This document shows positions 6,068 to 29,181 of a DNA stretch of 45,732 bases, one piece after another. The stretch comes from Clostridia bacterium (lineage in GTDB: Bacteria; Bacillota; Clostridia; Oscillospirales; CAG-272). The first letter of the stretch is position 1; every line of letters starts with the position of its first letter. The notes beneath the pieces were generated by a model that saw only the letters and a list, made by a program, of their open reading frames with translations, searched no databases and was not told the origin of the DNA. Location: the NCBI GenBank assembly GCA_017631855.1, contig JAGBSP010000066.1, positions 1-45,732 of the forward strand, given 5' to 3'. The position numbers and the translations under genes are program-made.

Positions 6068-7192
6068 CTATGATTCGATGGGAACCGTATAGGTTCCGTC
6101 CGAAACAATAATCCGACGAACATCGCTTCTCTCGGAAAGCAAGCTCGGCTCACAGCTCGTTAAAATGACCTGCTTATCCTTAATTTTATAAAGCAAATAT
6201 TCTCGCCGCGACTGATCCAGCTCCGAGAGCACGTCGTCAAAGAGAAATACGGGATAATCTCCAAACTCATCGCGGCAAATTTCACCTTCGGCAAGTTTGA
6301 GAGCAAGAGCCAAGGATCTTTGCTGTCCTTGAGAGCCGTAAATTCTTGCGCTTTTACCGTTTAGACGAATATCAAGGTCATCCTTATGAATTCCCCACAA
6401 CGTCGCTCCTGCGTTAATTTCGCGGTCGTGAGAGGACATTAAAAGAGAATAATATTTTTCCTCGGTTAGCTTTCGGTCAAGATATTCTTCCTCGGGCTGT
6501 CCCGACGAGCCGTCAAACACCACAGTCGGACGCTCTCGCTCTCCCGTCATTTCAGCAAAGCATTCGGCAACGTAACCCGAAACGCGACGAATAAATTTCA
6601 AGCGCATCTCGGAAATAATTGCTGCCTCGTGTGCGAGCTGTTCACTCCAAAGCTCTACCGTCGCATCAAAGGTTTTCCGATCCGAAAACGCCGATTTGAT
6701 CAGCGCATTTCTCTGTTGCAAAAGATGATGATAGGTCTGTAGAGAATGAATATACATTGGATACATTCGGCTGATTGCCATATCCATATAGCTTCTTCTC
6801 TGTGCGGGACCGTCCTTGATCATCGATAGATGTTCGGGACAAAAAAGCACCGCACGAAAACTCCCGACAATCTCCGAAAGCTTTTCCATTTTTACGCCAT
6901 TTTTTTCAATCTGCCGCTGTTTATCGCGAAAAATCTTGACCTTGATCGATTGATCTCGGTGAACGTCGTGAAAATCGAGAATAATTTCCGCAAAGTTCTC
7001 ACCAAAGCCGATCATTTCAGGCGTATGTGCTCCACGAAAGCTTCGACCCACCGACGGATAAAAGATTGCTTCTAGCAAATTGGTTTTCCCTTGCGCGTTT
7101 TCTCCCAAAAGAATATTCACTCCTTCAGAAAACGTCACTTCGGCTTCAGAAATATTACGAAAATTTCGAACCGAAATTTTTTTACAGTACAT
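6068..7192 (-). CDS. recF: DNA replication and repair protein RecF
   Basis: A 374-residue SMC-like ATPase that loads RecA at gaps through RecOR. The Walker A is G-E-N-A-Q-G-K-T (30-37). The ABC-type signature lies in Y-G-S-Q-G-Q-Q-R-S, and the Walker B is F-L-F-D-D-V-L-S-E-L-D. The N-terminal R-N-F-R-N-I is the classic RecF/SMC start. The ATG at 7192 is only 6 bp beyond the dnaN stop and has no strong Shine-Dalgarno, so translational coupling to dnaN is likely. The small S4-domain gene yaaA/rlbA that normally separates dnaN and recF is absent. Confidence 0.97.
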   Translation of the reverse strand: MYCKKISVRNFRNISEAEVTFSEGVNILLGENAQGKTNLLEAIFYPSVGRSFRGAHTPEMIGFGENFAEIILDFHDVHRDQSIKVKIFRDKQRQIEKNGVKMEKLSEIVGSFRAVLFCPEHLSMIKDGPAQRRSYMDMAISRMYPMYIHSLQTYHHLLQQRNALIKSAFSDRKTFDATVELWSEQLAHEAAIISEMRLKFIRRVSGYVAECFAEMTGERERPTVVFDGSSGQPEEEYLDRKLTEEKYYSLLMSSHDREINAGATLWGIHKDDLDIRLNGKSARIYGSQGQQRSLALALKLAEGEICRDEFGDYPVFLFDDVLSELDQSRREYLLYKIKDKQVILTSCEPSLLSERSDVRRIIVSDGTYTVPIES

Positions 7193-7198
7193 TGTGAT

Positions 7199-8353
7199 TT
7201 AGTCTTTCATTCTGACGGGCAGAAGCATAAAGATCTCTTCTTCTCCCTCTTCCTCCACAGCAGGCTGAATGTTCATACTGGTCAGCGGAGAGGACATCGA
7301 AAGAATAATCTTTTCATCACTGCACGCCTTGACACTATCAATTAGGAAACGGTTATTAAAGGCGATCAAAAGATCGTCACCCGTGTGCTCGATAAAGAGC
7401 TCATCGTAAGTGCTTCCTGCCGAAGAAACGGCAGAAATCTTCAATACGTCACCCACAACGTCCAATTTTACATGAGAACGAACGCTTCCCGCGATCTTTT
7501 CTTCGGTAACAAGCGCCGCACGCTCAAGTGCCGAGATCAACTCACGGCGGTCAAGCGTCACGGAAATCTTGTGAGAGGACATAATAATTCGATCATAATC
7601 GATATATTCTCCGTCTACCAGACGCGAGAAGAAAATCAGCTCGCCAATGAGGAAAACGATATGCTTTCTGGTTACGTAGATCTGCATCACAGCATCCTCG
7701 TCGTCCGAAAGTAGACGGGAAAGCTCATTCATGGTCTTAACGGGAACGATAAATTTATATTCGAGATGCTCGTTTCCGTTGGTATTCTTATTGACAAGCT
7801 CGGTGGTCTTTGCACACTTTGCCAGCTTAAAGCTATCGCAGGCAACCATCATAATCGAATCATCAGTAATCTTAAAGAAGGTACCGTTGAGAACCGTTCT
7901 CTGATCATTCACTCCCATTGCAAAGGAAACCTGATTCATCATTTTCTTTACAACCGACTGACCGATAATAAAGCTTCTGTCACTGACAAGATCGGGGATA
8001 TTCGGAAAATCAGAGCCTGCAAGAGCACTCATCTTATGAGAAGAACGTCCGCTGAAGATGCAGGCAACGAGCTTTTCGTCGACCGTCAGAGTAATCTCTT
8101 CCCCCTCCATTACGCGAAGCGTCTGATTGAATTTCTGGGCATTAATAATATAGGAGCCTTCCTCAATGACCTTCGCCTCGACGGTAATACGAACGCCTTT
8201 GTCTAAGTCAAAGGTCGTCATCACACAGGTATCGGGCGCTTTCGCTTCAATCAGAATACCTTCGATGGTGCTAAGGGTAGATTTGCCCGAAACGGCACAC
8301 ATAAGGGGAGCAACGGCGGCGCTGATGGCGGAACGGTTAAAAATAATTTTCAT
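7199..8353 (-). CDS. dnaN: DNA polymerase III beta subunit (sliding clamp)
   Basis: A 384-residue ring-forming clamp that tethers the replicase. It starts M-K-I-I-F-N-R and ends L-L-P-V-R-M-K-D, the conserved P-V-R clamp terminus. Three clamp-fold repeats are consistent with the length. G-S-D-F-P in the first third and A-F-N-N-R-F-L in the last third are family landmarks. The ATG at 8353 follows AAAGGAGA at good spacing. Upstream is the probable oriC; downstream is recF after 6 bp. Confidence 0.97.
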   Translation of the reverse strand: MKIIFNRSAISAAVAPLMCAVSGKSTLSTIEGILIEAKAPDTCVMTTFDLDKGVRITVEAKVIEEGSYIINAQKFNQTLRVMEGEEITLTVDEKLVACIFSGRSSHKMSALAGSDFPNIPDLVSDRSFIIGQSVVKKMMNQVSFAMGVNDQRTVLNGTFFKITDDSIMMVACDSFKLAKCAKTTELVNKNTNGNEHLEYKFIVPVKTMNELSRLLSDDEDAVMQIYVTRKHIVFLIGELIFFSRLVDGEYIDYDRIIMSSHKISVTLDRRELISALERAALVTEEKIAGSVRSHVKLDVVGDVLKISAVSSAGSTYDELFIEHTGDDLLIAFNNRFLIDSVKACSDEKIILSMSSPLTSMNIQPAVEEEGEEEIFMLLPVRMKD

Positions 8354-8392
8354 AAGAAATCTCCTTTTTGGCAGATTTTATTTTTTCTGCCC

Positions 8393-8430
8393 TTTTAATA
8401 AAATAAAAATAAATAATAAATAAAAGAAAT
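8393..8430. other. AT-rich candidate DNA unwinding element
   Basis: Almost only A and T (TTTTAATAAAATAAAAATAA and onward), directly beside the triplet run and the first DnaA box. This is the expected order of a Gram-positive unwinding system: box, GC patch, DnaA-trio, melting region. Confidence 0.6.
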
Positions 8431-8450
8431 AGTAACAGTAGTATTATTAT
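8430..8450 (+). other. DnaA-trio-like triplet run
   Basis: Plus strand reads TAG-TAA-CAG-TAG-TAT-TAT-TAT. Read 3' to 5' away from the adjacent DnaA box, the distal triplets are GAT, GAC, AAT and GAT, which fit the 3'-[G/A]AT-5' DnaA-trio; the three nearest the box are TAT. A short GC-containing spacer (TTTGCGGAAAT) separates the run from the box at 8464. Confidence 0.55.
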
Positions 8451-8463
8451 GATTTGCGGAAAT

Positions 8464-8472
8464 TGTGGAAAA
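8464..8472 (-). promoter_or_regulatory. DnaA box beside the triplet run
   Basis: TTTTCCACA on the minus strand. It is the box closest to the melting region and identical to the boxes at 8665-8673 and 8812-8820. Confidence 0.6.
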
Positions 8473-8865
8473 GTCGTCAAAACCTTACTGTGCAAGGTTT
8501 TTTTGATGTTTTATTTTGTGAGATCTTATCTGTTGAGAAAGGAAATTGAATGGAAAAAAACGTGGAAAATTAAAAGGTTGATTGCGTTCGAAATGTGTTT
8601 TATCCAAGTGACGTTTTTTGAATATGTCTCTCGCTTAATTATGGAAAAGTTTTAAGCACTTTTTTGTGGAAAAGTTTTAATTTGTCGTAGAGAGATCGTA
8701 TCTCTTTCCCATAGACGTCAAAAAACTTTTCAATAGCGAAATGTCTTGTTTTCTTTTGCTTTTTTTACTTTTCCAATTCTCTCTTATGGAAAAAACAGAG
8801 AAAAAATACAGTGTGGAAAAGCATGGGAAAGGTCGTAGAAAAGCCACTTTGTTTTGTTGGAAAAA

Positions 8866-10239
8866 TTATACGCCTGTAATATCCTTCATCAATTCGTCGA
8901 TCTCAATTTTGAACATCGAATCTGAGGTATACCGACGGTCGATTTGCTCAAAGGATGCGTGAATTGTTGCATAGTCGCGGTCAAAGATCTTTGCGATGCT
9001 CGGGAAAGACATATCGGTGATCTCACGAATCAGAAAAATAGCAACGTGGCGCGCACTTGCAATTTCCTTCGTTCTCTTTTTTCCGATGAGCTCGATCTTT
9101 GTGACATTAAATTTTTCCTGAACTGCACCAAAGATTTTTTCAATGGTTACGTTGACAGGCTCGGCACCACCGAGAAGTTCGGAAAGACAACCTTTGGCAA
9201 GATCCATGGAGATCTTTTGTCCCGAGAGAAAGCTCAGTGCACTCAGCTTTTTGATCGCACCCTCGATTTGTCGGATATTTGAACGAAGATTTTCTGCAAG
9301 GAAGGTTAGAACCTCATCGGGAATATCGATCGAAACCTGCTCTGCTTTTTTCTTGATAATTGCAATACGAAGCTCCAAATCTGGCGGCTGAATGTCAGCA
9401 AGAAGTCCCCATTCAAAACGGGTCTTGAGTCGGTCTTCGAGCGTTGGAATATCCTTGGGTGGACGGTCAGAGGTCAGAATGATCTGCTTTCTTTCTTCAT
9501 ACAGTGTATTAAAGGTGTGGAAAAATTCTTCCTGTGTTGCGTTCTTTCCTGCAATGAACTGAATATCGTCAAGTAAAAGAATATCACAGTTGCGATAGCG
9601 TTCGTGGAACTTGTGCATTTCCTTCTTTGCCAAACTTTCAATCATCTGGTTGGTAAAATCGTCACCCTTCACGTAGAGTACACGAATGTCAGGTTGTCTT
9701 CGCTTAATCTCATTGACGATTGCGCTCATCAGGTGGGTTTTACCAAGTCCACTCGGTCCGTAGATAAACAGAGGATTGTAATCAGACGCGGGTCTTGTTG
9801 CTACGGCAAGACAAGCGGCGTGCGCAAATTTGTTGGAATTTCCAACGATGAAATTTTCAAAGGTGTATTCAAATTTATAGTTCGGGGGAAGAATTCCCTG
9901 AGGGCGCTGCTCTTCCTTTTGAGCCTCGGAAGAAAAATCCTCGGTTTTTGCCGGACTTGCCGTCTGCTCGGGGGAGGAAGGCGTTCCGGTAAATATGACG
10001 TTAATCTCAACCTCAAAACCAAACTGCGTGGAAAATCCATCGCGTAGAGTGTCCATAAACTTTTCACAGATATGCTTGTATTTAAATTCCGAGGGCGTCG
10101 ATAACGTAATTACGTTATTTTCAAAGGATTCGACGGCCATATCTCCAAACCAAAGGTCTACCGTCGAGGACGCGTATTTCGTTAGAAACGATTCTTTTAC
10201 CATCTGCCAAATGGCGGAAAGGTCGTCAAGATAAGACAT
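8866..10239 (-). CDS. dnaA: chromosomal replication initiator DnaA
   Basis: A 457-residue initiator that binds oriC boxes and melts DNA. Domain I is residues 1-80 and a Pro/Ser/Gln-rich linker about 85-115. The AAA+ domain has Walker A G-P-S-G-L-G-K-T (161-168), Walker B I-L-L-L-D-D (220-225), and the sensor/arginine-finger region. The C-terminal helix-turn-helix domain has A-R-H-V-A-I-F-L. The normally conserved R-D-H-[ST]-T-V reads R-D-Y-A-T-I (421-426): base-contacting His and Thr/Ser are replaced by Tyr423 and Ala424. ATG at 10239 follows CGGAGTG. A consensus-like promoter lies 73 bp upstream. Upstream, in place of the usual rpmH-rnpA genes, is a divergent cca operon. Confidence 0.97.
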   Translation of the reverse strand: MSYLDDLSAIWQMVKESFLTKYASSTVDLWFGDMAVESFENNVITLSTPSEFKYKHICEKFMDTLRDGFSTQFGFEVEINVIFTGTPSSPEQTASPAKTEDFSSEAQKEEQRPQGILPPNYKFEYTFENFIVGNSNKFAHAACLAVATRPASDYNPLFIYGPSGLGKTHLMSAIVNEIKRRQPDIRVLYVKGDDFTNQMIESLAKKEMHKFHERYRNCDILLLDDIQFIAGKNATQEEFFHTFNTLYEERKQIILTSDRPPKDIPTLEDRLKTRFEWGLLADIQPPDLELRIAIIKKKAEQVSIDIPDEVLTFLAENLRSNIRQIEGAIKKLSALSFLSGQKISMDLAKGCLSELLGGAEPVNVTIEKIFGAVQEKFNVTKIELIGKKRTKEIASARHVAIFLIREITDMSFPSIAKIFDRDYATIHASFEQIDRRYTSDSMFKIEIDELMKDITGV

Positions 10240-19129: not shown

Positions 19130-19134
19130 AAGTA

Positions 19135-19173
19135 AAAAGCACTTGCAGCAAAATTGTTACAAGTGCTTTTTTC
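19135..19173. terminator. bidirectional terminator
   Basis: AAAAGCACTTG (19135-19145) pairs with CAAGTGCTTTT (19160-19170) around a 14-base loop. It separates the exporter pair from the end of the converging cassette. Confidence 0.8.
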
Positions 19174-19189
19174 TTATTGTTTTTTATGC

Positions 19190-20992
19190 TTAAAATTTCG
19201 CTTCGATGATTTTCTGGAATTCCTCTCTGTCAAGGAAGGGAGCCATATCGTTGATTGACGGCGAAACGATGCGTCCGTCGGGCAGAACCTTCGACGAGGA
19301 CTTGGGTGCGAAGTTCTGCGTGGGATCGACCACAACTTCGCAGACGGCGGGTCCTTCGCTTGCAAGGAATTCCGCAAGCACCTCGTCTGCGTTTTTCTCC
19401 GAATCAAAGGTATAGTACGCAAGTCCGAACGCGTCGGAGAGCTTTGCGAAGTCGGGGAAGCAGATGCCGCTTGTACCATCAATACCGATAAAGGGCGGCT
19501 TAAAGAGATTGGTCTGCGTTTGACGGATCGAATGATAGCCGTTGTTGTTGATGATCAGGAGCTTCATATTGAGCTTGTTATACGCGATGGTGGCAAGCTC
19601 CTGAATGTTCATCATGACGCTTCCGTCTCCGTCGATGCAGATGGTGCGCTTCGAATTGTCCGAAATTGCCACACCGAGTGCCGCGGGAAGTCCATAACCC
19701 ATTGCCGCGCAACCCGAATTCGTAAACATTCTCTGTCCCTGCTTGATCTTTCCTGCCTGGAAGGTTACGACGCACGCACTTCCGTTACCGCAGATGATAC
19801 GGTCGTCGGGCGTGAGGTGATCAAAGAGCTTGTCAATGAAAATATAGGGGTTGATGGGCGCATCGTCGTGGCGGTACTCGTCACACGCCGCGGGATATTT
19901 CTTTACGAGATCGCGGCACCAAGCGAGCCATTTTGCGTGAGAGGGAACGGGGGTATAGTCCTCGGAAAGGAGCTTGTCGAGCAGATCGCTGACGTCGGCA
20001 TTGACCGGCATATCGGGGCGAACGGTCGGTTTGACAAGCTCGCGGGGATCGATATCGACGATGATCTTATAGGCATTCTTGGCAAAATCATAGTGCGTAT
20101 AGCCGATCATTCGGATGTTCAGACGGCAACCAAGGCTGAGGAGCAGGTCACACTGCTGGATTGCAAAGTTGCCGGGGCGCGTGCCGACGGTGCCGGGCAT
20201 TCCCGCAAAGTAGGGGCTGTCGTGTGCAACCGTATCGTTTGCGTTCCACGCGGTAACCACGGGAATCTGCAACTTATCCAAAAGCTTCAAAAGCTTTTCT
20301 TCAGCTCCGCCGAGACGGATACCCGTACCTGCAAGAACGAGAGGAGCCTTTGCGTTTTTGATTTTTTCGAGAATGGTTTTTGCAACCTCGTCGGTGACCT
20401 CGGGTACCTGCCAAGGACATTCGATTGCCGCATTGAAATGACGGAGCTCATCGGTTTCAATCTGTGCGCCCTGTACGTCGAGCGGAATGTCGAGCCATAC
20501 GGGACCGGGTCTGCCGTTGGTTGCGAGGTAGAGCGCCTTTTCGAGATGGTATGCAATATCAAGAGGATCGGTGACCATTACGGCATATTTCGTCATGTTT
20601 GATACCGAGCCGATAATGTCAAATTCCTGATCACCAAGCTGACGAAGTCCGAGCTCGGCACAGCTCCAAGTGGTGGTTTCTCTCTTGACCTGACCCGAAA
20701 GAACGAACATCGGGATCGAGTCGAGCCAACCGCCCATCACGCCCGTGATCGCGTTGGTTCCACCGGGGCCACTCGTGACGCAGACCGCGCAGAGCTTATT
20801 CGTCATACGGGTATATCCCTCTGCGGCAATCGAGCACGCCTGCTCGTGGTGATTGAAAATACAACGCAAGCCTTCCTCGTGTCCGAGTGCGTCGTCGAGG
20901 TGCATCGCGCCGCCGCCCGTGACCATAAAGCAATCGGAAATGCCGTGATTGACAAGAAACTCGGCAACGTATTTTGCAAGTTTGATCTTCAT
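19190..20992 (-). CDS. ThDP-dependent acetolactate synthase-like enzyme
   Basis: 600 residues with all three domains of the acetolactate synthase/pyruvate decarboxylase fold. Glu50 in N-H-H-E-Q activates thiamine diphosphate. The central domain is present (G-T-G-I-R-L-G-G). The ThDP/Mg2+ motif G-D-G (455-457) leads to N-N-N-G-Y. It should decarboxylate a 2-oxo acid and pass the acyl carbanion to an acceptor. As last gene of a cassette with an RfbH-type dehydratase, it may act like YerE, which adds an acetyl unit from pyruvate to a keto-deoxysugar in yersiniose synthesis. A catabolic or branched-chain synthase is less likely: no ilvN-like partner is present. ATG 20992 follows AAAGGAG. Ends at a strong terminator. 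Confidence 0.87.
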   Translation of the reverse strand: MKIKLAKYVAEFLVNHGISDCFMVTGGGAMHLDDALGHEEGLRCIFNHHEQACSIAAEGYTRMTNKLCAVCVTSGPGGTNAITGVMGGWLDSIPMFVLSGQVKRETTTWSCAELGLRQLGDQEFDIIGSVSNMTKYAVMVTDPLDIAYHLEKALYLATNGRPGPVWLDIPLDVQGAQIETDELRHFNAAIECPWQVPEVTDEVAKTILEKIKNAKAPLVLAGTGIRLGGAEEKLLKLLDKLQIPVVTAWNANDTVAHDSPYFAGMPGTVGTRPGNFAIQQCDLLLSLGCRLNIRMIGYTHYDFAKNAYKIIVDIDPRELVKPTVRPDMPVNADVSDLLDKLLSEDYTPVPSHAKWLAWCRDLVKKYPAACDEYRHDDAPINPYIFIDKLFDHLTPDDRIICGNGSACVVTFQAGKIKQGQRMFTNSGCAAMGYGLPAALGVAISDNSKRTICIDGDGSVMMNIQELATIAYNKLNMKLLIINNNGYHSIRQTQTNLFKPPFIGIDGTSGICFPDFAKLSDAFGLAYYTFDSEKNADEVLAEFLASEGPAVCEVVVDPTQNFAPKSSSKVLPDGRIVSPSINDMAPFLDREEFQKIIEAKF

Positions 20993-21010
20993 AGTCTTCT
21001 CCTTTAAAAA

Positions 21011-21667
21011 TTAGAGTTCAAAAAATTTCAAAAGTCCGAGCGCCGTGTCTGCGCTTCCGACCGAGGTGCACTTTGCCACGTCGTCGGCGCTCTCAAAGCC
21101 AAAGCCGTAGGTCACTCCGAGAAAGTCAACGCCCATTCCTTCGGCGCCGATGGCATCGAAGGCGGTGTCGCCGATCATCACGGCGCGCTCCTTCGGCACT
21201 CCGCTGACCGTCATACATTTTTCGATGATGTCCTTCTTTTTGAGCTTGTTTTCGTGGTCGCCGCCAAACATAATGTCGGTGTAGCGGTCAAAGCCGAAAT
21301 GGCGAAGTAGCGTCAGGGCATAGTCCTCACGCTTGTAGGTCGCTACCGCGGGACGAATGCCTCTTTTACAAAGCTCTTCAAACAGCTCGAAGATGCCGTC
21401 GTAGGGCTTGGCGAGCAGAAGATATTCCTCGGTGCTGTATTTGTTTCGGAAGGTGGTGGCAATTTCTTGCAGGATCTCGCCTTCCAATCCATAGGTTCTC
21501 GCAAAGGAGTCCTGAATGGGAGGTCCGATAAAGGCAGAAAGGGCTTTGTCATCAGGAATAGCAAAGCCCATTTCATTCATTGTGTATTTTACAGCGGACA
21601 GAACTCCCTCGGTTGTGTCGAGAAGAGTTCCGTCCAGATCAAAGATCGCAAGATCGTAGCGGTTCAT
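21011..21667 (-). CDS. HAD-family phosphatase (phosphoglycolate phosphatase-like)
   Basis: 218 residues. Asp10 and Asp12 in F-D-L-D-G-T (9-14) are the nucleophile and acid/base, and D-T-T-E-G-V follows. An alpha-helical cap (about 20-85) is of the Gph/PgmB type. V-A-T-Y-K is motif II, K near 145 motif III, and M-I-G-D-T-A-F-D motif IV. It should remove phosphate from a small sugar phosphate. It lies between the aldolase (8 bp) and ThDP (18 bp) genes, so its substrate is probably an intermediate or by-product of that pathway. Confidence 0.88.
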   Translation of the reverse strand: MNRYDLAIFDLDGTLLDTTEGVLSAVKYTMNEMGFAIPDDKALSAFIGPPIQDSFARTYGLEGEILQEIATTFRNKYSTEEYLLLAKPYDGIFELFEELCKRGIRPAVATYKREDYALTLLRHFGFDRYTDIMFGGDHENKLKKKDIIEKCMTVSGVPKERAVMIGDTAFDAIGAEGMGVDFLGVTYGFGFESADDVAKCTSVGSADTALGLLKFFEL

Positions 21668-21675
21668 ACTGATTT

Positions 21676-23274
21676 TTATTCCTCGTAATGAGATTTTGTC
21701 AGGAATTCAACCGTAATCTGATCCTTGACACTCTCAAGGAAATCGATGACGTAGGAATTCAGGTATTTTACTTTCTTTCTGATAAAATCATATTCCATAT
21801 CTGCGTGAATATAGTTCGACGCGCGCAGGGAATATCCGTCAAAGCCCGCCAGCTGTACCTTGTTCACGCCAATGCCGATGAGCGCCTTTAAGAGCATTAC
21901 CAGCGAGTTGTCGATGATCTCGGTGTTGGGGTCAATCAGCGAGCTGTAGTTGAGATGGTAGGCAAACGCGCCCGTGGTCGTTTCGGTCAGGTTTGAGGTC
22001 GCAATGATCGTCTGACTCGTGCGGCTGAGCTTGGTTGCGAGTTGTAGATAACGCTTCGAGTTGCTCAGGAAAACGTAGTCGGGACGGAAGGACTTCGGAA
22101 TATAGTTGATCGAAATGACGGTCGGCTTTTCTTCCTCAACGTAGTGGATAATCTTCTTTTTTACAGCGTCAGATTCCATTGTCGCGCCGGGACCGATGAT
22201 TAGAATATTCTTTCCGCGCAAAGCCTCGCCAAGGGCAAGTCTGTCTGTTTCGTCGTTGATCTCGTTTTTCTGGTAGTCGACGTAAAGCGCTTCGATATAG
22301 TTTTTATCGTAAAGCAGCTTCTTTTCGCCCTCCAGCTTTTCGAGGATCTCGTTGATCGATTTGACCGAGAGCGTACGTTTTTCCATCAGGTAGGAAACGT
22401 AGCTCGGATGGCAATCGTTCGATGCGGCAAGGTAATAAAACATATTGTATCCCCAAGCCGCGGGAGTGTAGAATTGAATAATGTTGGAGTCGATCGCCTC
22501 AAGGAGCTGCGAGATGCGATAGTCCTTGCCAAGCTCGTGATTCATATGCATTGCAATCAGCTCGATCGGAGCGTTGCCCGCACTCTTGCCCATTCCGTAG
22601 ATCGTGCCGTCTACCACCATCGTGCGCTCGATCTTGTTTGCGAGCATTGCGATACAGTTGGCGTAGCCCATCTGGAAGTTGTTGTGCGCATGGTAGCCAA
22701 GTCCGATGGCGGGATCGAGGTTGTCGTTCAGAAGATTGAAATAGTGCATCAGATTGTTCTGGTGCATCAGTCCGTAGGTGTCAACCATCGATACGGCGTA
22801 AGGCTTGTAGTGGTTGGCAAGACGGACGAGATCCAACATCTCCTCGTCGTCGTAGCTGGTAACCGACACGAGTTGAGCGAATACCTTGTAACCAAGCTTG
22901 CTCAGTTCTCCGCAATATGCCATGGCCTCTTCGCGCAGATGCTTTTTGAAAATTACGCGGATACCGTCAAGGAAGCTGTCCTTGGCGGGAGAAATGTGCG
23001 ATAGGGAGCAGGTGCCGTAGTCGATCATTCCGACGATCATTGCCTGCTTTCGGTCAAGCTCGCCGAAGATCTTTCCGACGCTGTCGGTGTCGGGCATAAT
23101 GCTTCGATTGATATCGAACTCACGGCGCTCGTCAAGGAATCCAACCTCGATGATATCGACGCCCGCATCCACCAACCGCTCAAATACGCTGACCAAATTA
23201 TCGTGACCGAAATTCCAATCGTTAATATATCCGCCGTCTCTGAGAGTACAGTCTAAAAGCTTTATCTCACCCAT
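21676..23274 (-). CDS. two-domain HMGL-type aldolase with C-terminal Rossmann-like domain
   Basis: 532 residues. Residues 1-300 are a DRE-TIM (HMG-CoA lyase/4-hydroxy-2-oxovalerate aldolase-like) barrel: L-L-D-C-T-L-R-D-G-G-Y with Arg12 and Asp13, and H-A-H-N-N with metal ligands His195 and His197. Residues ~350-530 form a second domain starting N-I-L-I-I-G-P-G (356-363), which resembles the DUF115/MptE-like fold found in surface-glycan genes. The DRE-TIM part would make or break a C-C bond next to a 2-oxo acid. Proteins of this build occur in surface-polysaccharide loci beside ThDP enzymes. The reaction is unknown. ATG 23274 follows AAGGAGA. It lies between the dehydratase and HAD genes. Confidence 0.8.
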   Translation of the reverse strand: MGEIKLLDCTLRDGGYINDWNFGHDNLVSVFERLVDAGVDIIEVGFLDERREFDINRSIMPDTDSVGKIFGELDRKQAMIVGMIDYGTCSLSHISPAKDSFLDGIRVIFKKHLREEAMAYCGELSKLGYKVFAQLVSVTSYDDEEMLDLVRLANHYKPYAVSMVDTYGLMHQNNLMHYFNLLNDNLDPAIGLGYHAHNNFQMGYANCIAMLANKIERTMVVDGTIYGMGKSAGNAPIELIAMHMNHELGKDYRISQLLEAIDSNIIQFYTPAAWGYNMFYYLAASNDCHPSYVSYLMEKRTLSVKSINEILEKLEGEKKLLYDKNYIEALYVDYQKNEINDETDRLALGEALRGKNILIIGPGATMESDAVKKKIIHYVEEEKPTVISINYIPKSFRPDYVFLSNSKRYLQLATKLSRTSQTIIATSNLTETTTGAFAYHLNYSSLIDPNTEIIDNSLVMLLKALIGIGVNKVQLAGFDGYSLRASNYIHADMEYDFIRKKVKYLNSYVIDFLESVKDQITVEFLTKSHYEE

Positions 23275-23295
23275 AATATTCTCCTTATGATGGAT

Positions 23296-24636
23296 TTACT
23301 GCTCTACTGCCTCGATGACGGTCTTTGCCATATAATCCAGCATTTCGTCGGTCATACCGGGATATACGCCGATCCAGAAGGTATCGGTCATAATACGGTC
23401 GGTTTGCGACAGATCGCCAACGATGCGGTAGCCTTCTCCGCTCTTTCTCATCTCGTCAAAGCAGGGGTGCTTGGTGAGGTTGCCAGCAAAGAGCATTCTC
23501 GTCTGCACGCCGTGGCTTTCGATATAACCCACTACTTTTTCACGATCAACGCCCTCGCGACAGGTCAGAAGGAATCCGAACCAAGAGGGATTGGAGTTTT
23601 CGCAAGCCTCGGGCAGAATAAGCTTGTCCGCGATGGGAGCGAGCTTTTCCTTGAGATATGCGAAGTTGTGACGGCGACGCTCGACGAAGCTCGGGAATTT
23701 CTTGAGCTGAGCACAGCCGACGGCAGCCTGCATATCGGTTGCCTTGAGGTTGTATCCGAAATGAGAATATACGTATTTGTGGTCGTATCCGAAGGGAAGC
23801 TCGCCGTACTGACGGTCGAAGCGGTGGTGACAGAAATTGTCCATACCCGAGGGACAGACACAGTCACGTCCCCAGTCACGGATCGAACGGATGATCTTGG
23901 AAAGCAGAGGATTATCGGTATAAACGGCACCGCCCTCACCCATCGTCATATGGTGAGGAGGATAGAAGCTGCTTGTTCCGATGTCACCGACGGTACCCGT
24001 CTTGCGGACGACACCATCAATGGTGTACTCCGAGCCGAGTGCGTCACAGTTGTCCTCGATGAGCCACAGATTATGCTTCTCGCAGAACGCCTTGACCGCG
24101 GAAAGATTGAAGGGATTTCCGAGGGTGTGTGCGATCATAACAGCTTTGGTCTTTTCGGAGAGAGCTGCCTCGAGTATCGTAACGTCGATATTGTACTGAG
24201 GAATGGTTACGTCCACGAATACGGGAATTGCGCCGTACTGAATGATAGGCGTAACCGTCGTGGGGAAGCCTGCGGCTACGGTGATAACTTCATCGCCGCG
24301 GCGAACCATTCTATCACCCAGCAGGGGAGAGGTCAAAGTCATAAAAGCAAGCAGGTTTGCCGAAGAGCCCGAGTTGACAAGGCTGCAGTGGCGAACACCG
24401 AGGTATTCGGCGAAGTTCTTTTCAAATTCGTCGGTATATCTGCCCGAGGTGAGCCAGAATTCAAGTGCACTGTCCACAAGGTTGCACATCTCGTCGCTGT
24501 CGTAAACGCGAGATGCATAGGGGATACGGTCACCCTCCTTGTAGGGAGCCTTGGTATGATATTTTTCACAGTATTCCTTGACTTGTGCGAGAATATTTTC
24601 TCTTGCTTCACGCTCGTTTGCGATAGGGGTCATCAT
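23296..24636 (-). CDS. RfbH/E1-type sugar 3-dehydratase (DegT family, PMP and [2Fe-2S])
   Basis: 446 residues of the DegT/DnrJ/EryC1 fold. Where aminotransferases have the PLP lysine, it reads S-F-Y-P-P-H-H-M-T-M-G-E-G-G with His228. This is the mark of RfbH/E1 CDP-4-keto-6-deoxyglucose 3-dehydratase, which uses free PMP. Asp195 in E-D-N-C-D-A-L binds the pyridine nitrogen. C-x-C-x7-C (Cys259, Cys261, Cys269) plus Cys197 fits the E1 [2Fe-2S] motif, though the upstream spacing is 61 rather than 57 residues. It should deoxygenate C3 of a nucleotide 4-keto-6-deoxyhexose. I choose ATG 24636 (or 24633), after AAAGGACTT; a start upstream would include the leader palindrome. First gene of the cassette. 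Confidence 0.9.
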   Translation of the reverse strand: MMTPIANEREARENILAQVKEYCEKYHTKAPYKEGDRIPYASRVYDSDEMCNLVDSALEFWLTSGRYTDEFEKNFAEYLGVRHCSLVNSGSSANLLAFMTLTSPLLGDRMVRRGDEVITVAAGFPTTVTPIIQYGAIPVFVDVTIPQYNIDVTILEAALSEKTKAVMIAHTLGNPFNLSAVKAFCEKHNLWLIEDNCDALGSEYTIDGVVRKTGTVGDIGTSSFYPPHHMTMGEGGAVYTDNPLLSKIIRSIRDWGRDCVCPSGMDNFCHHRFDRQYGELPFGYDHKYVYSHFGYNLKATDMQAAVGCAQLKKFPSFVERRRHNFAYLKEKLAPIADKLILPEACENSNPSWFGFLLTCREGVDREKVVGYIESHGVQTRMLFAGNLTKHPCFDEMRKSGEGYRIVGDLSQTDRIMTDTFWIGVYPGMTDEMLDYMAKTVIEAVEQ

Positions 24637-24670
24637 AAGATTAAGTCCTTTCTCTTTCGTTTGTAATAAT

Positions 24671-24696
24671 ATGATTTGCCGTTTTTTGCAAATCAT
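24671..24696. promoter_or_regulatory. palindrome in the leader of the deoxysugar cassette
   Basis: ATGATTTGC (24671-24679) and GCAAATCAT (24688-24696) are perfect inverted arms around 8 bases. It lies between the promoter and the ribosome site of the 3-dehydratase gene. Without a T-run it is not a terminator. It could be a repressor operator or a leader hairpin. Confidence 0.5.
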
Positions 24697-24724
24697 ACGA
24701 TGGGAGTGCAAAATTCTCTAATGT

Positions 24725-24753
24725 ATATTACCATACATTTCCTATTTTGTCAA
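24725..24753 (-). promoter_or_regulatory. promoter of the deoxysugar cassette
   Basis: Minus strand TTGACA (24753-24748), 17 bp, TAATAT (24730-24725). About 80 bases of leader before the start codon. Confidence 0.7.
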
Positions 24754-26928: not shown

Positions 26929-28083
26929 TCAGATGTTTTTCTTTTGTGTTTTATCGGTGGTGTCTGCACCGCCGTAACAATGGTATTGGTCGATTTTCCA
27001 AGGAATCGTTACATAAGGGTTTCTTTGCTCCATGTCGTCCACCAATTCAACACCCCAACCGGGTCCGTCGGGAATTTCCATATAGCCGTCCTTGAGCTTG
27101 AATTTATACTCTCCCATACAATCTAATGCTTGCTGGAAGGTCTTTGGCGGGAATGTTTCCATAATTAAAAAGTTGGGGATCGCCGCCGCCATATGTAAGC
27201 TTGCCGCAATGTTGATCACGCTGACCGGCACGTGCGGAACGATGTATGCGTGGTGCGCCTCTGCCAAGGCACAAACCTTCATACTTCCCGTAAAGCCGCC
27301 CAAGGTGCATACGTCGGGTCTTGCGATCCTCATTCCCGCGTTCAGCATCATTTCAAATTCCTGAATGCTGATGCATCGCTCGCCTGCGGCGATCGGCACG
27401 ACGGTTTTTGCCGTGAATTCTTTCAGGGTCTCAATGTTTTCCGAACGGATCGGGTCTTCAAAGAAGAGGATGTTCAAGGACTCCAGCATTTTGCAGAGCA
27501 TCAGCGATTCGTCACCGTTCAGTTCTCGGTGGATTTCAATCGCAATATCGATCTCGTCGCCGAGCACCTCTCTTGCAAAAGCGACTCTTTGATACATCGT
27601 TGCAAGCCGCTTGGAAGAGGCAAAGCCTTCCATATCTCTGCAAGGATTGAGTCTGACCGCCGTAAAGCCTTCTTCCTTTGCTTCAAGTAACAGAGCTCTG
27701 AATAATTCATTATCATTGTTTGGCGTAATGTGGCGCCATACACGAATTTTGTTTCGATACTTGCCACCAAATAAATCATATACAGGGACACCTAACGCTT
27801 TTCCCTTGATATCCCACAGCGCAAGATCAATGGCGGAAATGGCACTCTGTATGTTCATTCCCTTGAATTGATGCTCTTCATATAATCTTTCGTTGATAAA
27901 ATTGATTCGGTTGACGTCTTCGCCGACCAAAACAGGCTCTAAGCATTTCAGCGTTCCGACAACGCCTTCTCTCATCGCCCAAAGTCCGGATTCGCCAAGA
28001 CCGACGATTCCTTCGTCGGTGTGAACCTTAACGAATAAATGTCTGTTCCCCGATAAAATCGGCTCTATTTTCGTGATCTTCAT
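26929..28083 (-). CDS. enolase-superfamily dehydratase (mandelate racemase/DgoD-like)
   Basis: 384 residues of the MR_MLE family. The N-terminal capping domain (1-115) has A-I-D-L-A-L-W-D-I-K-G-K. The barrel ligands are E183 (I-E-I-H, with His185), E209 (F-F-E-D-P) and E235 (A-A-G-E-R-C). The first of these is Glu where Asp is more common. His284 in V-P-H-V-P is the likely general base or acid. Members dehydrate sugar acids such as galactonate, or tartrate. Fifteen bp after a tartrate/malate-type dehydrogenase gene in the same direction, with AAAGGACGG before the ATG. An acid-sugar or hydroxy-diacid substrate is inferred; no transporter is nearby. Confidence 0.87.
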   Translation of the reverse strand: MKITKIEPILSGNRHLFVKVHTDEGIVGLGESGLWAMREGVVGTLKCLEPVLVGEDVNRINFINERLYEEHQFKGMNIQSAISAIDLALWDIKGKALGVPVYDLFGGKYRNKIRVWRHITPNNDNELFRALLLEAKEEGFTAVRLNPCRDMEGFASSKRLATMYQRVAFAREVLGDEIDIAIEIHRELNGDESLMLCKMLESLNILFFEDPIRSENIETLKEFTAKTVVPIAAGERCISIQEFEMMLNAGMRIARPDVCTLGGFTGSMKVCALAEAHHAYIVPHVPVSVINIAASLHMAAAIPNFLIMETFPPKTFQQALDCMGEYKFKLKDGYMEIPDGPGWGVELVDDMEQRNPYVTIPWKIDQYHCYGGADTTDKTQKKNI

Positions 28084-28098
28084 CTGTGCCGTCCTTTC

Positions 28099-29181
28099 TT
28101 ACAGTAGCTTTGAATGTTCGGTTTCGAGGCGCTTTATGATGGCATCTCCGACTTCGCTCGTCTTTGCCGTTCCGCCAAGGTCGCAGGTGAGAGTCTTGCC
28201 CTCGACCATCAGAGCCTCGATGGCATCGATCAAACGCGCGCCCCAATTCTCGTAGCCAAGGAAATCGAGCATTTGGCTTGCCGACCAGATGGAAGCAAGC
28301 GGATTTGCGATCTGTTTGCCCGCAATGTCGGGTGCAGAGCCGTGGATCGGCTCAAACATGGACGGGAATTTTCTTTCGGGGTTCAGATTTGCTCCTGCTG
28401 CAAGACCCATACCACCTGTAATAGCGGCTCCAAGGTCGGTCAAAATGTCTCCAAAGAGATTGGACGTTACGACGATCTCGAATCTTGCGGGGTCCTTCAC
28501 GAAGAACATGCTTGCCGCATCGACGAGATAAGAAGCGGTCTTTACGTCGGGATATTCCTTGGCAACCTCGGCAAATACGCTATCCCAAAATACCATGGAA
28601 TAATTCAGCGCATTGCCCTTGGAAATGCTCGTTAACGTCTTCTTTTCCTTACGCGCCAGCTCGAACGCATAGCGAATGATCCGTTCGGTTCCCTTGCGAG
28701 AGAAAACTCCCGTTTGAAGTACGACCTCATTTTCCTGACCGCGATAGAGCCAATCGCCCGCGCCTGCATATTCGCCTTCGCTGTTTTCTCGGATCACTAC
28801 CATATCAATATCCTTGCAGGATACGTTTTTCAGCGGGCAAGGTGCGCCGTTCAGTAATTTGATGGGACGGACGTTTACGTATTCGTCAAACTCGTGGCGG
28901 ATTTTCAACAGCAGATCCCAAAGCGAGATATGATCGGGAACGCCGGGATAGCCTACTGCACCAAGATAGATCGCATCGTATTGCTTCAATACCTCAATTG
29001 CGTCGTCAGGCATCATCTTTCCGGTGTTCAGATAATACTCACATCCCCAAGGAAAATGCGTGAATTCGAATTGAAATCCTCCGTCGAGCTTTGCCACGCA
29101 ATTCAAAACCCGCACACCCTCGTTAATCACCTCAGGACCTATTCCGTCACCTGCAATCACGGCAATCTTATAGTTTTTCAT
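28099..29181 (-). CDS. tartrate/D-malate dehydrogenase-type decarboxylating dehydrogenase
   Basis: 360 residues of the isocitrate/isopropylmalate dehydrogenase superfamily. It begins I-A-V-I-A-G-D-G-I-G-P-E-V. R-E-N-S-E-G-E-Y-A-G carries the substrate-binding segment, D-I-L-T-D-L the metal aspartates, and F-E-P-I-H-G-S-A-P-D-I the NAD loop. L-W-D-L-L-L-K-I-R near residue 88 is like the tartrate/D-malate (TtuC/DmlA) group rather than LeuB or Icd. It would oxidise and decarboxylate a (D)-2-hydroxy diacid using NAD+ and Mn2+/Mg2+. ATG 29181 follows GGAGAAATT. First gene of an operon with the enolase-type gene, divergent from a LysR regulator. Confidence 0.87.
   Translation of the reverse strand: MKNYKIAVIAGDGIGPEVINEGVRVLNCVAKLDGGFQFEFTHFPWGCEYYLNTGKMMPDDAIEVLKQYDAIYLGAVGYPGVPDHISLWDLLLKIRHEFDEYVNVRPIKLLNGAPCPLKNVSCKDIDMVVIRENSEGEYAGAGDWLYRGQENEVVLQTGVFSRKGTERIIRYAFELARKEKKTLTSISKGNALNYSMVFWDSVFAEVAKEYPDVKTASYLVDAASMFFVKDPARFEIVVTSNLFGDILTDLGAAITGGMGLAAGANLNPERKFPSMFEPIHGSAPDIAGKQIANPLASIWSASQMLDFLGYENWGARLIDAIEALMVEGKTLTCDLGGTAKTSEVGDAIIKRLETEHSKLL

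Follow-up and report, generated by a model that had tools for sequence, protein, structure and literature searches.

The stretch analyzed here (the window, 45,732 nucleotides) is the whole of contig C8 (JAGBSP010000066.1) of a metagenome-assembled genome (MAG) of a Clostridia bacterium (assembly GCA_017631855.1, here G000; 1.83 Mb, 85.5% complete). It carries an operon of four genes, coding for an RfbH-type dehydratase, a two-domain DRE-TIM aldolase, a phosphatase of the haloacid dehalogenase (HAD) type and a thiamine diphosphate (ThDP) enzyme. The RfbF and RfbG found elsewhere in the genome, the E1 residues of the dehydratase and the resemblance of the ThDP enzyme to JanthE point most likely to a pathway for a cytidine diphosphate (CDP)-activated, C-4-branched 3,6-dideoxyhexose. 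The operon would be one half of this pathway and the branch would be long, of the erwiniose or caryophyllose type, a reading to which we give a probability of roughly 0.7. The original prediction for this DNA is supported in part: the sequence agrees with a C-branched deoxysugar pathway in which an E1-type 3-dehydratase is paired with a YerE-like ThDP enzyme, here in a Clostridia-like genome.

The dehydratase passed the equivalog model NF011936 (724.8 bits, cut-off 423), and its best matches among solved structures were 3bcx (529 bits) and 3bb8 (524 bits). Its residues C197, C259, C261 and C269 all aligned with the cysteines of E1 (3bcx) that we take to hold the [2Fe-2S] cluster, and the histidine of its SFYPPHH motif aligned with the E1 histidine that presumably replaces the lysine binding pyridoxal phosphate. 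This histidine was kept in all 45 homologues longer than 400 aa. Only one of the 45, and not the window protein, fitted the strict pattern C-X57-C-X-C-X7-C (the first spacing in the window is X61), so the assignment of the cysteines rests on the alignment with 3bcx. Judged by its sequence, the protein is an E1-type dehydratase.

Concerning the rest of the pathway, the cassette had been described as an orphan, with no glycosyltransferase, cytidylyltransferase or 4,6-dehydratase near. The absence held in the window for the RfbF, RfbG, GtrB-like, GT87 and PF02348-type profiles (other glycosyltransferase families were not searched), but not in the genome. Both RfbF (C21:21392-22171) and RfbG (C21:22195-23220) score above their cut-offs and are encoded on another contig, C21. 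After them come an NAD-dependent epimerase/dehydratase-family protein (C21:23328-24263), predicted to be the branch-ketone reductase, and a GtrB-like GT2 enzyme (C21:24288-25214), for which the best NCBIfam models were PgfS (161 bits, cut-off 500) and an ArnC-type one (103 bits, cut-off 529). The last two genes belong to families often found 3′ of the ThDP gene elsewhere. Because of these four genes on C21, the cassette is not an orphan.

The nearest relatives of the cassette, L057 and L058 (both Clostridia MAGs), have the same second block, RfbF-RfbG-epimerase-GtrB, at separate places (L231 and L232), and the flanks of the window differ from theirs. G135, G260 and several named genomes have the two blocks in a single cluster, an arrangement shared by various Clostridia and also by some spirochaetes. 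From the 39 named loci (defined below) without RfbF within 10 kb, 23 genomes were examined and RfbF was found elsewhere in 19 of them; three of the other four (L066, L124 and L133) also lacked a ThDP gene at the locus. The 19 second RfbF sites, several of them on short contigs, were accompanied by RfbG in 10 cases, RfbH in 8, a GtrB-like gene in 8 and the epimerase family in 6, the full second block being present at L231 and L232 only. Directly upstream of RfbF on C21 there are three large consecutive open reading frames (ORFs; L167:612-9114) with signal-peptide-like starts and, by eye, GLIG-like repeats, which are possible surface proteins.

The association of the four families was followed in two sets of loci. 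A scan of genome contigs gave at least 575 aldolase relatives. The 80 best were retained (the named loci), and in 53 of these the contig reaches 8 kb or more beyond the aldolase in both directions (well-flanked). The second set came from 391 surveyed genomes of the class, 172 of which had an aldolase match at E 0.001, most being distant HMGL-type paralogues; the 30 best aldolase loci were used, and RfbH was found in 36 of the 391 genomes. Antisense ORFs hid genes from greedy longest-ORF clustering, and the counts were therefore taken from profiles, built on the same loci with score thresholds chosen by us; the cytidylyltransferase profile was likewise made from matches within the examined loci.

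Within 10 kb of the aldolase, the 53 well-flanked loci contained the ThDP enzyme in 48 cases, the epimerase family in 41, HAD in 37, RfbH and a GtrB-like gene in 35 each, RfbF in 34, RfbG in 33, GtrA in 17 and an AroB-like gene in 7. The four families were found together within this distance, as had been anticipated, at 25 of the well-flanked loci (28 of all 80 named), and the ThDP gene was within 3 kb of the aldolase at 47 of the 53. In the 30 survey genomes, RfbH was present in all 11 with the ThDP gene beside the aldolase and in one of the 19 without it (Fisher p 2e-7, a value that ignores relatedness, six of the eleven genomes being of one family). A Robinsoniella locus (L068) has no ThDP gene. 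Lacrimispora saccharolytica (L136) is a carrier that can be cultivated. A MAG labelled Methanomassiliicoccaceae, an archaeon (L122), shows aldolase, HAD, RfbG and RfbH, by transfer or misbinning. A related arrangement occurs on the Desulfobaculum bizertense plasmid NZ_CP090010.1 (L255), where rfbH has a two-part transketolase and a single-domain aldolase as neighbours; the transketolase may be a further ThDP enzyme with the coupling role proposed below for the one in the cassette.

The ThDP enzyme matched the solved structures 8rph (412 bits), 5ahk (249 bits) and 6lpi (244 bits), the first of which we take to be JanthE from Janthinobacterium and the second a YerE. In a tree of 73 rows, only four of them references and these on long branches, the window protein, 67 locus proteins and 8rph formed a clade with support 100/99, apart from two acetolactate synthases. 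The protein of locus L172 paired with 5ahk outside that clade, 5ahk being apart from the acetohydroxyacid synthases (AHAS) too. The catalytic Glu and the Gly of the GDG ThDP motif were kept in the window and in 68 of 68 aligned locus rows. Identity to 8rph was 36%, and where 8rph has CDG and a Pro the window protein has GDG and an Arg. The protein is predicted to be a YerE-like ketone carboligase, grouping with JanthE and not with the acetolactate synthases. A plasmid search with it gave 10 records at 30.6–33.0% identity, and all 8 of the annotated ones were labelled acetolactate synthases.

As to the aldolase, HMGL-like PF00682 covers residues 4-247 of its 532 aa (ORF 23274-21676, minus strand), the rest of the protein being without a match. 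The residues R12, D13, H195 and H197 of the fold are kept, and the DmpG and MhpE models were failed (TIGR03217, 87 bits against a cut-off of 286; NF006049, 98 against 229). The C-terminal domain gave no Pfam match at E up to 1 and nothing reliable against PDB or PHROGs (best PDB profile match 9hmz, E 0.027). A profile comparison with hhalign suggested that it is remotely related to the MptE-like family PF01973 (P 9e-5, probability 59.5), against P of 0.014 or more for nine control families. The GT42/CST-I family, considered as a possible origin of the domain, matched no genome and no control either. The domain is present in the ThDP-type aldolases and in those with a cytidylyltransferase neighbour. 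At L172 (1467-4667) an aldolase domain and a GT2 domain make up one protein of 1066 aa, adjoining a ThDP gene and RfbH/RfbG/RfbF.

Many ThDP-type loci and some of the cytidylyltransferase type have a HAD gene close to the aldolase, and the distance is within 3 kb in 53 of the 80 named ones. Eight of the 80 have an AroB-related sugar-phosphate phospholyase (TIGR04425, 437.6 bits, cut-off 400), which never co-occurs with a HAD gene within 3 kb, although L080 has one farther off; this exclusion fits alternative ways of losing phosphate. At these eight loci (L069, L072, L079, L080, L082, L100, L113 and L126) the phospholyase, mostly with a short-chain dehydrogenase/reductase, replaces the HAD gene near the aldolase, and a carbocyclic branched sugar, similar to caryose, is conceivable there.

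The partners of the aldolase are of two kinds. Besides the ThDP enzyme, there is a cytidylyltransferase of the PF02348 (CMP-ulosonate) type, to which KdsB, NeuA and PseF belong. Beside the 30 survey aldolases the cytidylyltransferase was found in 15 cases, the ThDP enzyme in 11, both in none and neither in four (p 5e-5); beside the 80 named ones the corresponding numbers were 5, 69, none and six (p 2e-5). The cytidylyltransferase counts come from our own profile, Pfam having confirmed PF02348 in 4 of the 15 survey and 4 of the 5 named cases. At the survey loci without a ThDP gene, the cytidylyltransferase gene is usually directly upstream of the aldolase, at -5 to 25 bp and once at 113 bp. The same profile found nothing in the window, nor at the 11 survey and 69 named loci of the ThDP type. 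Run against NCBIfam, one of five cytidylyltransferases (L055) was identified as KdsB (301.7 bits, cut-off 193), and the annotation of a Leisingera plasmid has, in a row, the aldolase, a 3-deoxy-manno-octulosonate (Kdo) cytidylyltransferase and a HAD protein. NeuB had no match in nine of the 15 genomes of the cytidylyltransferase type and was weakly matched in three (43–48 bits, over the Pfam cut-off) and clear in three; in none of the 15 was it beside the aldolase, the nearest being about 20 kb away (G313), and KdsA was not searched. At two loci (L035:772-2511 and L036:1486-3225) a fusion protein of 579 aa combines an IspD-type cytidylyltransferase with the aldolase domain. At L046:12544-14616, two genes after an aldolase-HAD pair, there is a 690-aa protein with nucleotidyltransferase, cytidylyltransferase-like and phosphoenolpyruvate (PEP) mutase parts, which suggests a phosphonate-bearing glycan.

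It seems reasonable to interpret that a 3-deoxy-2-ulosonic (4-hydroxy-2-oxo) acid is the product of the aldolase together with the phosphatase, at loci that have one. This acid would have two fates, either activation with CMP or decarboxylation by the ThDP enzyme and coupling to CDP-4-keto-3,6-dideoxyhexose. The sequences show the genes and their families, the E1 residues, the clade of the ThDP enzyme, the split into two blocks, the co-occurrence and the mutual exclusion of ThDP enzyme and cytidylyltransferase; the substrates, the role of the reductase and the order of the last steps are given here as we infer them. RfbF would form CDP-glucose and RfbG CDP-4-keto-6-deoxyglucose, from which RfbH and a reductant would strip the C3 hydroxyl, yielding CDP-4-keto-3,6-dideoxyhexose as the acceptor. 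The aldolase would condense pyruvate with an aldehyde, probably a phosphorylated one, and the phosphate would then be taken off by the HAD enzyme, leaving the free 3-deoxy-2-ulosonic acid as the donor. The ThDP enzyme would decarboxylate this donor, and attack of the resulting acyl carbanion on C4 of the acceptor would give a tertiary alcohol with a 2′-deoxy-3′-hydroxy branch. The branch ketone would be reduced by the epimerase/dehydratase-family protein of C21, and loading of the sugar onto polyprenyl phosphate, before its export to a surface glycan, would fall to the GtrB/PgfS-like transferase.

This scheme agrees with what is reported for related enzymes. According to PMC12247030, ErwE (erwiniose) and MMAR_2332 (caryophyllose) favour hydroxylated 2-oxo acids as donors, pyruvate is not used by ErwE, and the physiological acceptor of ErwE is given as CDP-4-keto-3,6-dideoxyglucose, the in vitro proof being on an analogue. 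The origin of these donors is not stated in section 2.1 of PMC12247030 or in its passages on aldolases. Caryophyllose carries at C4 a 1,3,4,5-tetrahydroxyhexyl branch that is deoxy at C2′, as described in PMC5706390. Its missing C2′ hydroxyl could be the expected trace of a pyruvate aldol addition followed by decarboxylation, and the 2′-deoxy-3′-hydroxy pattern is the one predicted for the cassette. The cassette and the cytidylyltransferase swap name two candidate donor-making genes and predict the chemical class of the donor. If the scheme is true, the origin of donors of the erwiniose and caryophyllose type is explained, and the pathway would supply many gut Clostridia with rare branched sugars for their surface glycans. 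A broader proposal, to which we would give slightly less than an even chance, is that the aldolase belongs to an unrecognised family of pyruvate-dependent 3-deoxy-2-ulosonate synthases replacing the PEP-dependent ones of the NeuB/KdsA type. The fate of its product would be set by the neighbouring gene: activation with CMP, as for sialic acid or Kdo, or ThDP-dependent, decarboxylative C-C ligation onto CDP-4-keto-3,6-dideoxyhexose, leading to branched surface sugars of 10 to 12 carbons in gut Clostridia.

Several observations weigh against the long-branch pathway. The genome is a MAG of only 85.5% completeness. No FAD_binding_6 protein, the kind of reductase expected for E1, was found on the contig of the cassette in six carrier genomes; G000 has a single match, some 18 kb away from the C21 genes, and in one of the six (G158) none was found anywhere. 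Among the profiled families, the uninterrupted order RfbH-aldolase-HAD-ThDP was seen in only 9 of 86 loci, and the nearest relative (L057) lacks RfbH at the locus and HAD within 3 kb. No HAD gene is within 3 kb at 20 of the 53 well-flanked loci, and it appears in the short (about 1.5 kb) flanks of only 4 of the 15 survey cytidylyltransferase loci, by our own profile. Of the five cytidylyltransferases run against NCBIfam, only the KdsB passed a ulosonate model, L044 matching PseF below cut-off and the other three nothing at 1e-20. In the aldolase, Y16 stands where DmpG has a His. In the ThDP enzyme, R294 is common to AHAS and 5ahk and not to 8rph, so the residues alone leave pyruvate chemistry possible.

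This last point favours a yersiniose-like pathway, in which the ThDP enzyme takes pyruvate and adds an acetyl branch, the aldolase and the phosphatase only travelling along in the operon. The loci without HAD nearby would also suit it, and YerE itself, according to PMC12247030, uses pyruvate with CDP-3,6-dideoxy-4-keto-D-glucose. However, the closeness of the aldolase to the ThDP gene in 47 of 53 loci, its alternative pairing with a cytidylyltransferase and never with both, and the greater nearness of the ThDP enzyme to 8rph than to 5ahk (JanthE taking longer donors, as reported in PMC12247030) make this pathway unlikely. The original prediction of a donor of this sort, with a coupled product of +44, is probably wrong; the swap points instead to a longer 4-hydroxy-2-oxo acid from aldolase and phosphatase. 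In another arrangement, the sugar acid made by aldolase and HAD enzyme would be transferred as such, as a CMP- or CDP-linked ulosonic acid, with the ThDP enzyme serving an unrelated branch of the same glycan. The cytidylyltransferase-aldolase neighbourhoods, the IspD-type fusions and the remote MptE likeness of the C-terminal domain are in its favour, but the PF02348-type profile is unmatched in the window and at the ThDP-type loci, and RfbH follows the ThDP-type genomes (11/11 against 1/19), so that we hold it to be very improbable. The third alternative, an ordinary acetolactate synthase for valine and isoleucine, favoured by the best NCBIfam models, which are acetolactate synthases, and by the lack of a second ilvB match in the genome, was rejected as scarcely credible, because the enzyme failed the IlvB equivalog (362 bits, cut-off 538), lies in the clade of 8rph and is surrounded by sugar genes, and because ilvC, which passes its cut-off in two of the six cassette genomes examined (G260 and G329), was unmatched in G158 and in G000 (85.5% complete) and did not reach its cut-off in G135 and G293. 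On this point the original prediction of a sugar enzyme survives.

Returning to the CDP-activated long-branch pathway, one of its closest known counterparts is that of yersiniose A in Yersinia pseudotuberculosis (E1/E3 and YerE). Presumably, both share the route to CDP-4-keto-3,6-dideoxyglucose (RfbF, RfbG, RfbH) and a ThDP branching at C4. The cassette differs in adding the aldolase and phosphatase, which predict a longer donor, and a lipid-phosphate GtrB-like gene, in having no E3 reductase found near, in occurring mostly in Clostridia and in being split between two loci in this lineage. The route KdsA-KdsC-KdsB leads to CMP-Kdo, and its logic of synthase, HAD phosphatase and cytidylyltransferase recurs in the alternative aldolase loci, most clearly in Leisingera; in these the place of the PEP-using synthase is taken by a DRE-TIM aldolase that presumably uses pyruvate, and in the window the ThDP enzyme replaces the cytidylyltransferase. 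DmpG, the 4-hydroxy-2-oxovalerate aldolase (1nvm), shares with our aldolase the fold, the RD motif and two metal-ligand histidines, in contrast to the Tyr for His, the extra C-terminal domain and the lack of an acylating aldehyde dehydrogenase among the four genes. JanthE is the closest solved relative of the ThDP enzyme, and its physiological substrates are described as unknown in PMC12188165. Sugars with a C-4 hydroxyethyl branch, the paulomycin-type octoses of Streptomyces antibiotics, are already known from Gram-positives, as stated in PMC4753412; those are antibiotic decorations with a two-carbon branch, whereas a surface-glycan sugar with a longer branch is predicted here. Literature searches listed no publication on the four-gene cassette, the related items being a review and the JanthE paper, both cited above, and papers on other branched sugars, and the link to the aldolase may already be in print.

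The features of the operon are collected in Table 1. The positions of the four genes were confirmed, with gaps of 21, 8 and 18 bp, and they form one compact operon. RfbH begins with an ATG, a TTG start at 24711 being open too. The proposed shared promoter is present as a site, with TG before the -10 box, but the match alone is weak evidence because 13 sites of such kind were found in 7 kb against 4.8 expected. The terminator proposed after the ThDP gene was confirmed as a stable hairpin (z calculated against 200 shuffles); it was absent from the list of the scanner because its loop exceeds the length allowed there. Pfam found three TPP_enzyme domains in the ThDP enzyme.

Table 1. Features of the four-gene operon, with positions in the window.
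Feature	Position	Strand	Basis
Promoter-like site, TTGACA-17-TAATAT, extended -10	24725..24753	-	10/12 matches, weak alone
RfbH/E1-type CDP-4-keto-6-deoxyglucose 3-dehydratase, 446 aa	23296..24636	-	NF011936, E1 residues
Aldolase, N-terminal DRE-TIM part, predicted pyruvate-dependent 3-deoxy-ulosonate (4-hydroxy-2-oxo acid) synthase	22258..23274	-	PF00682
Aldolase, C-terminal domain, residues 340-532, without Pfam family	21676..22257	-	Remote similarity to MptE-like PF01973
HAD phosphatase, 218 aa, predicted ulosonate-phosphate phosphatase	21011..21667	-	HAD_2, 121 bits; neighbourhoods
YerE/JanthE-like ThDP carboligase (predicted), 600 aa	19190..20992	-	8rph, 412 bits; tree clade
Terminator-like hairpin 3′ of the ThDP gene	19134..19171	-	-19.3 kcal/mol, z -5.3

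Elsewhere in the window, a recF-like gene (SMC_N), another ORF and dnaA are grouped at 6068-10239, which places the cassette some 10–15 kb from a probable replication origin region. At 26929-29181, a protein of the enolase superfamily (MR/MLE) and a dehydrogenase of the isocitrate/isopropylmalate type adjoin a LysR regulator, and these genes are likely a catabolic operon for a sugar acid or hydroxyacid.

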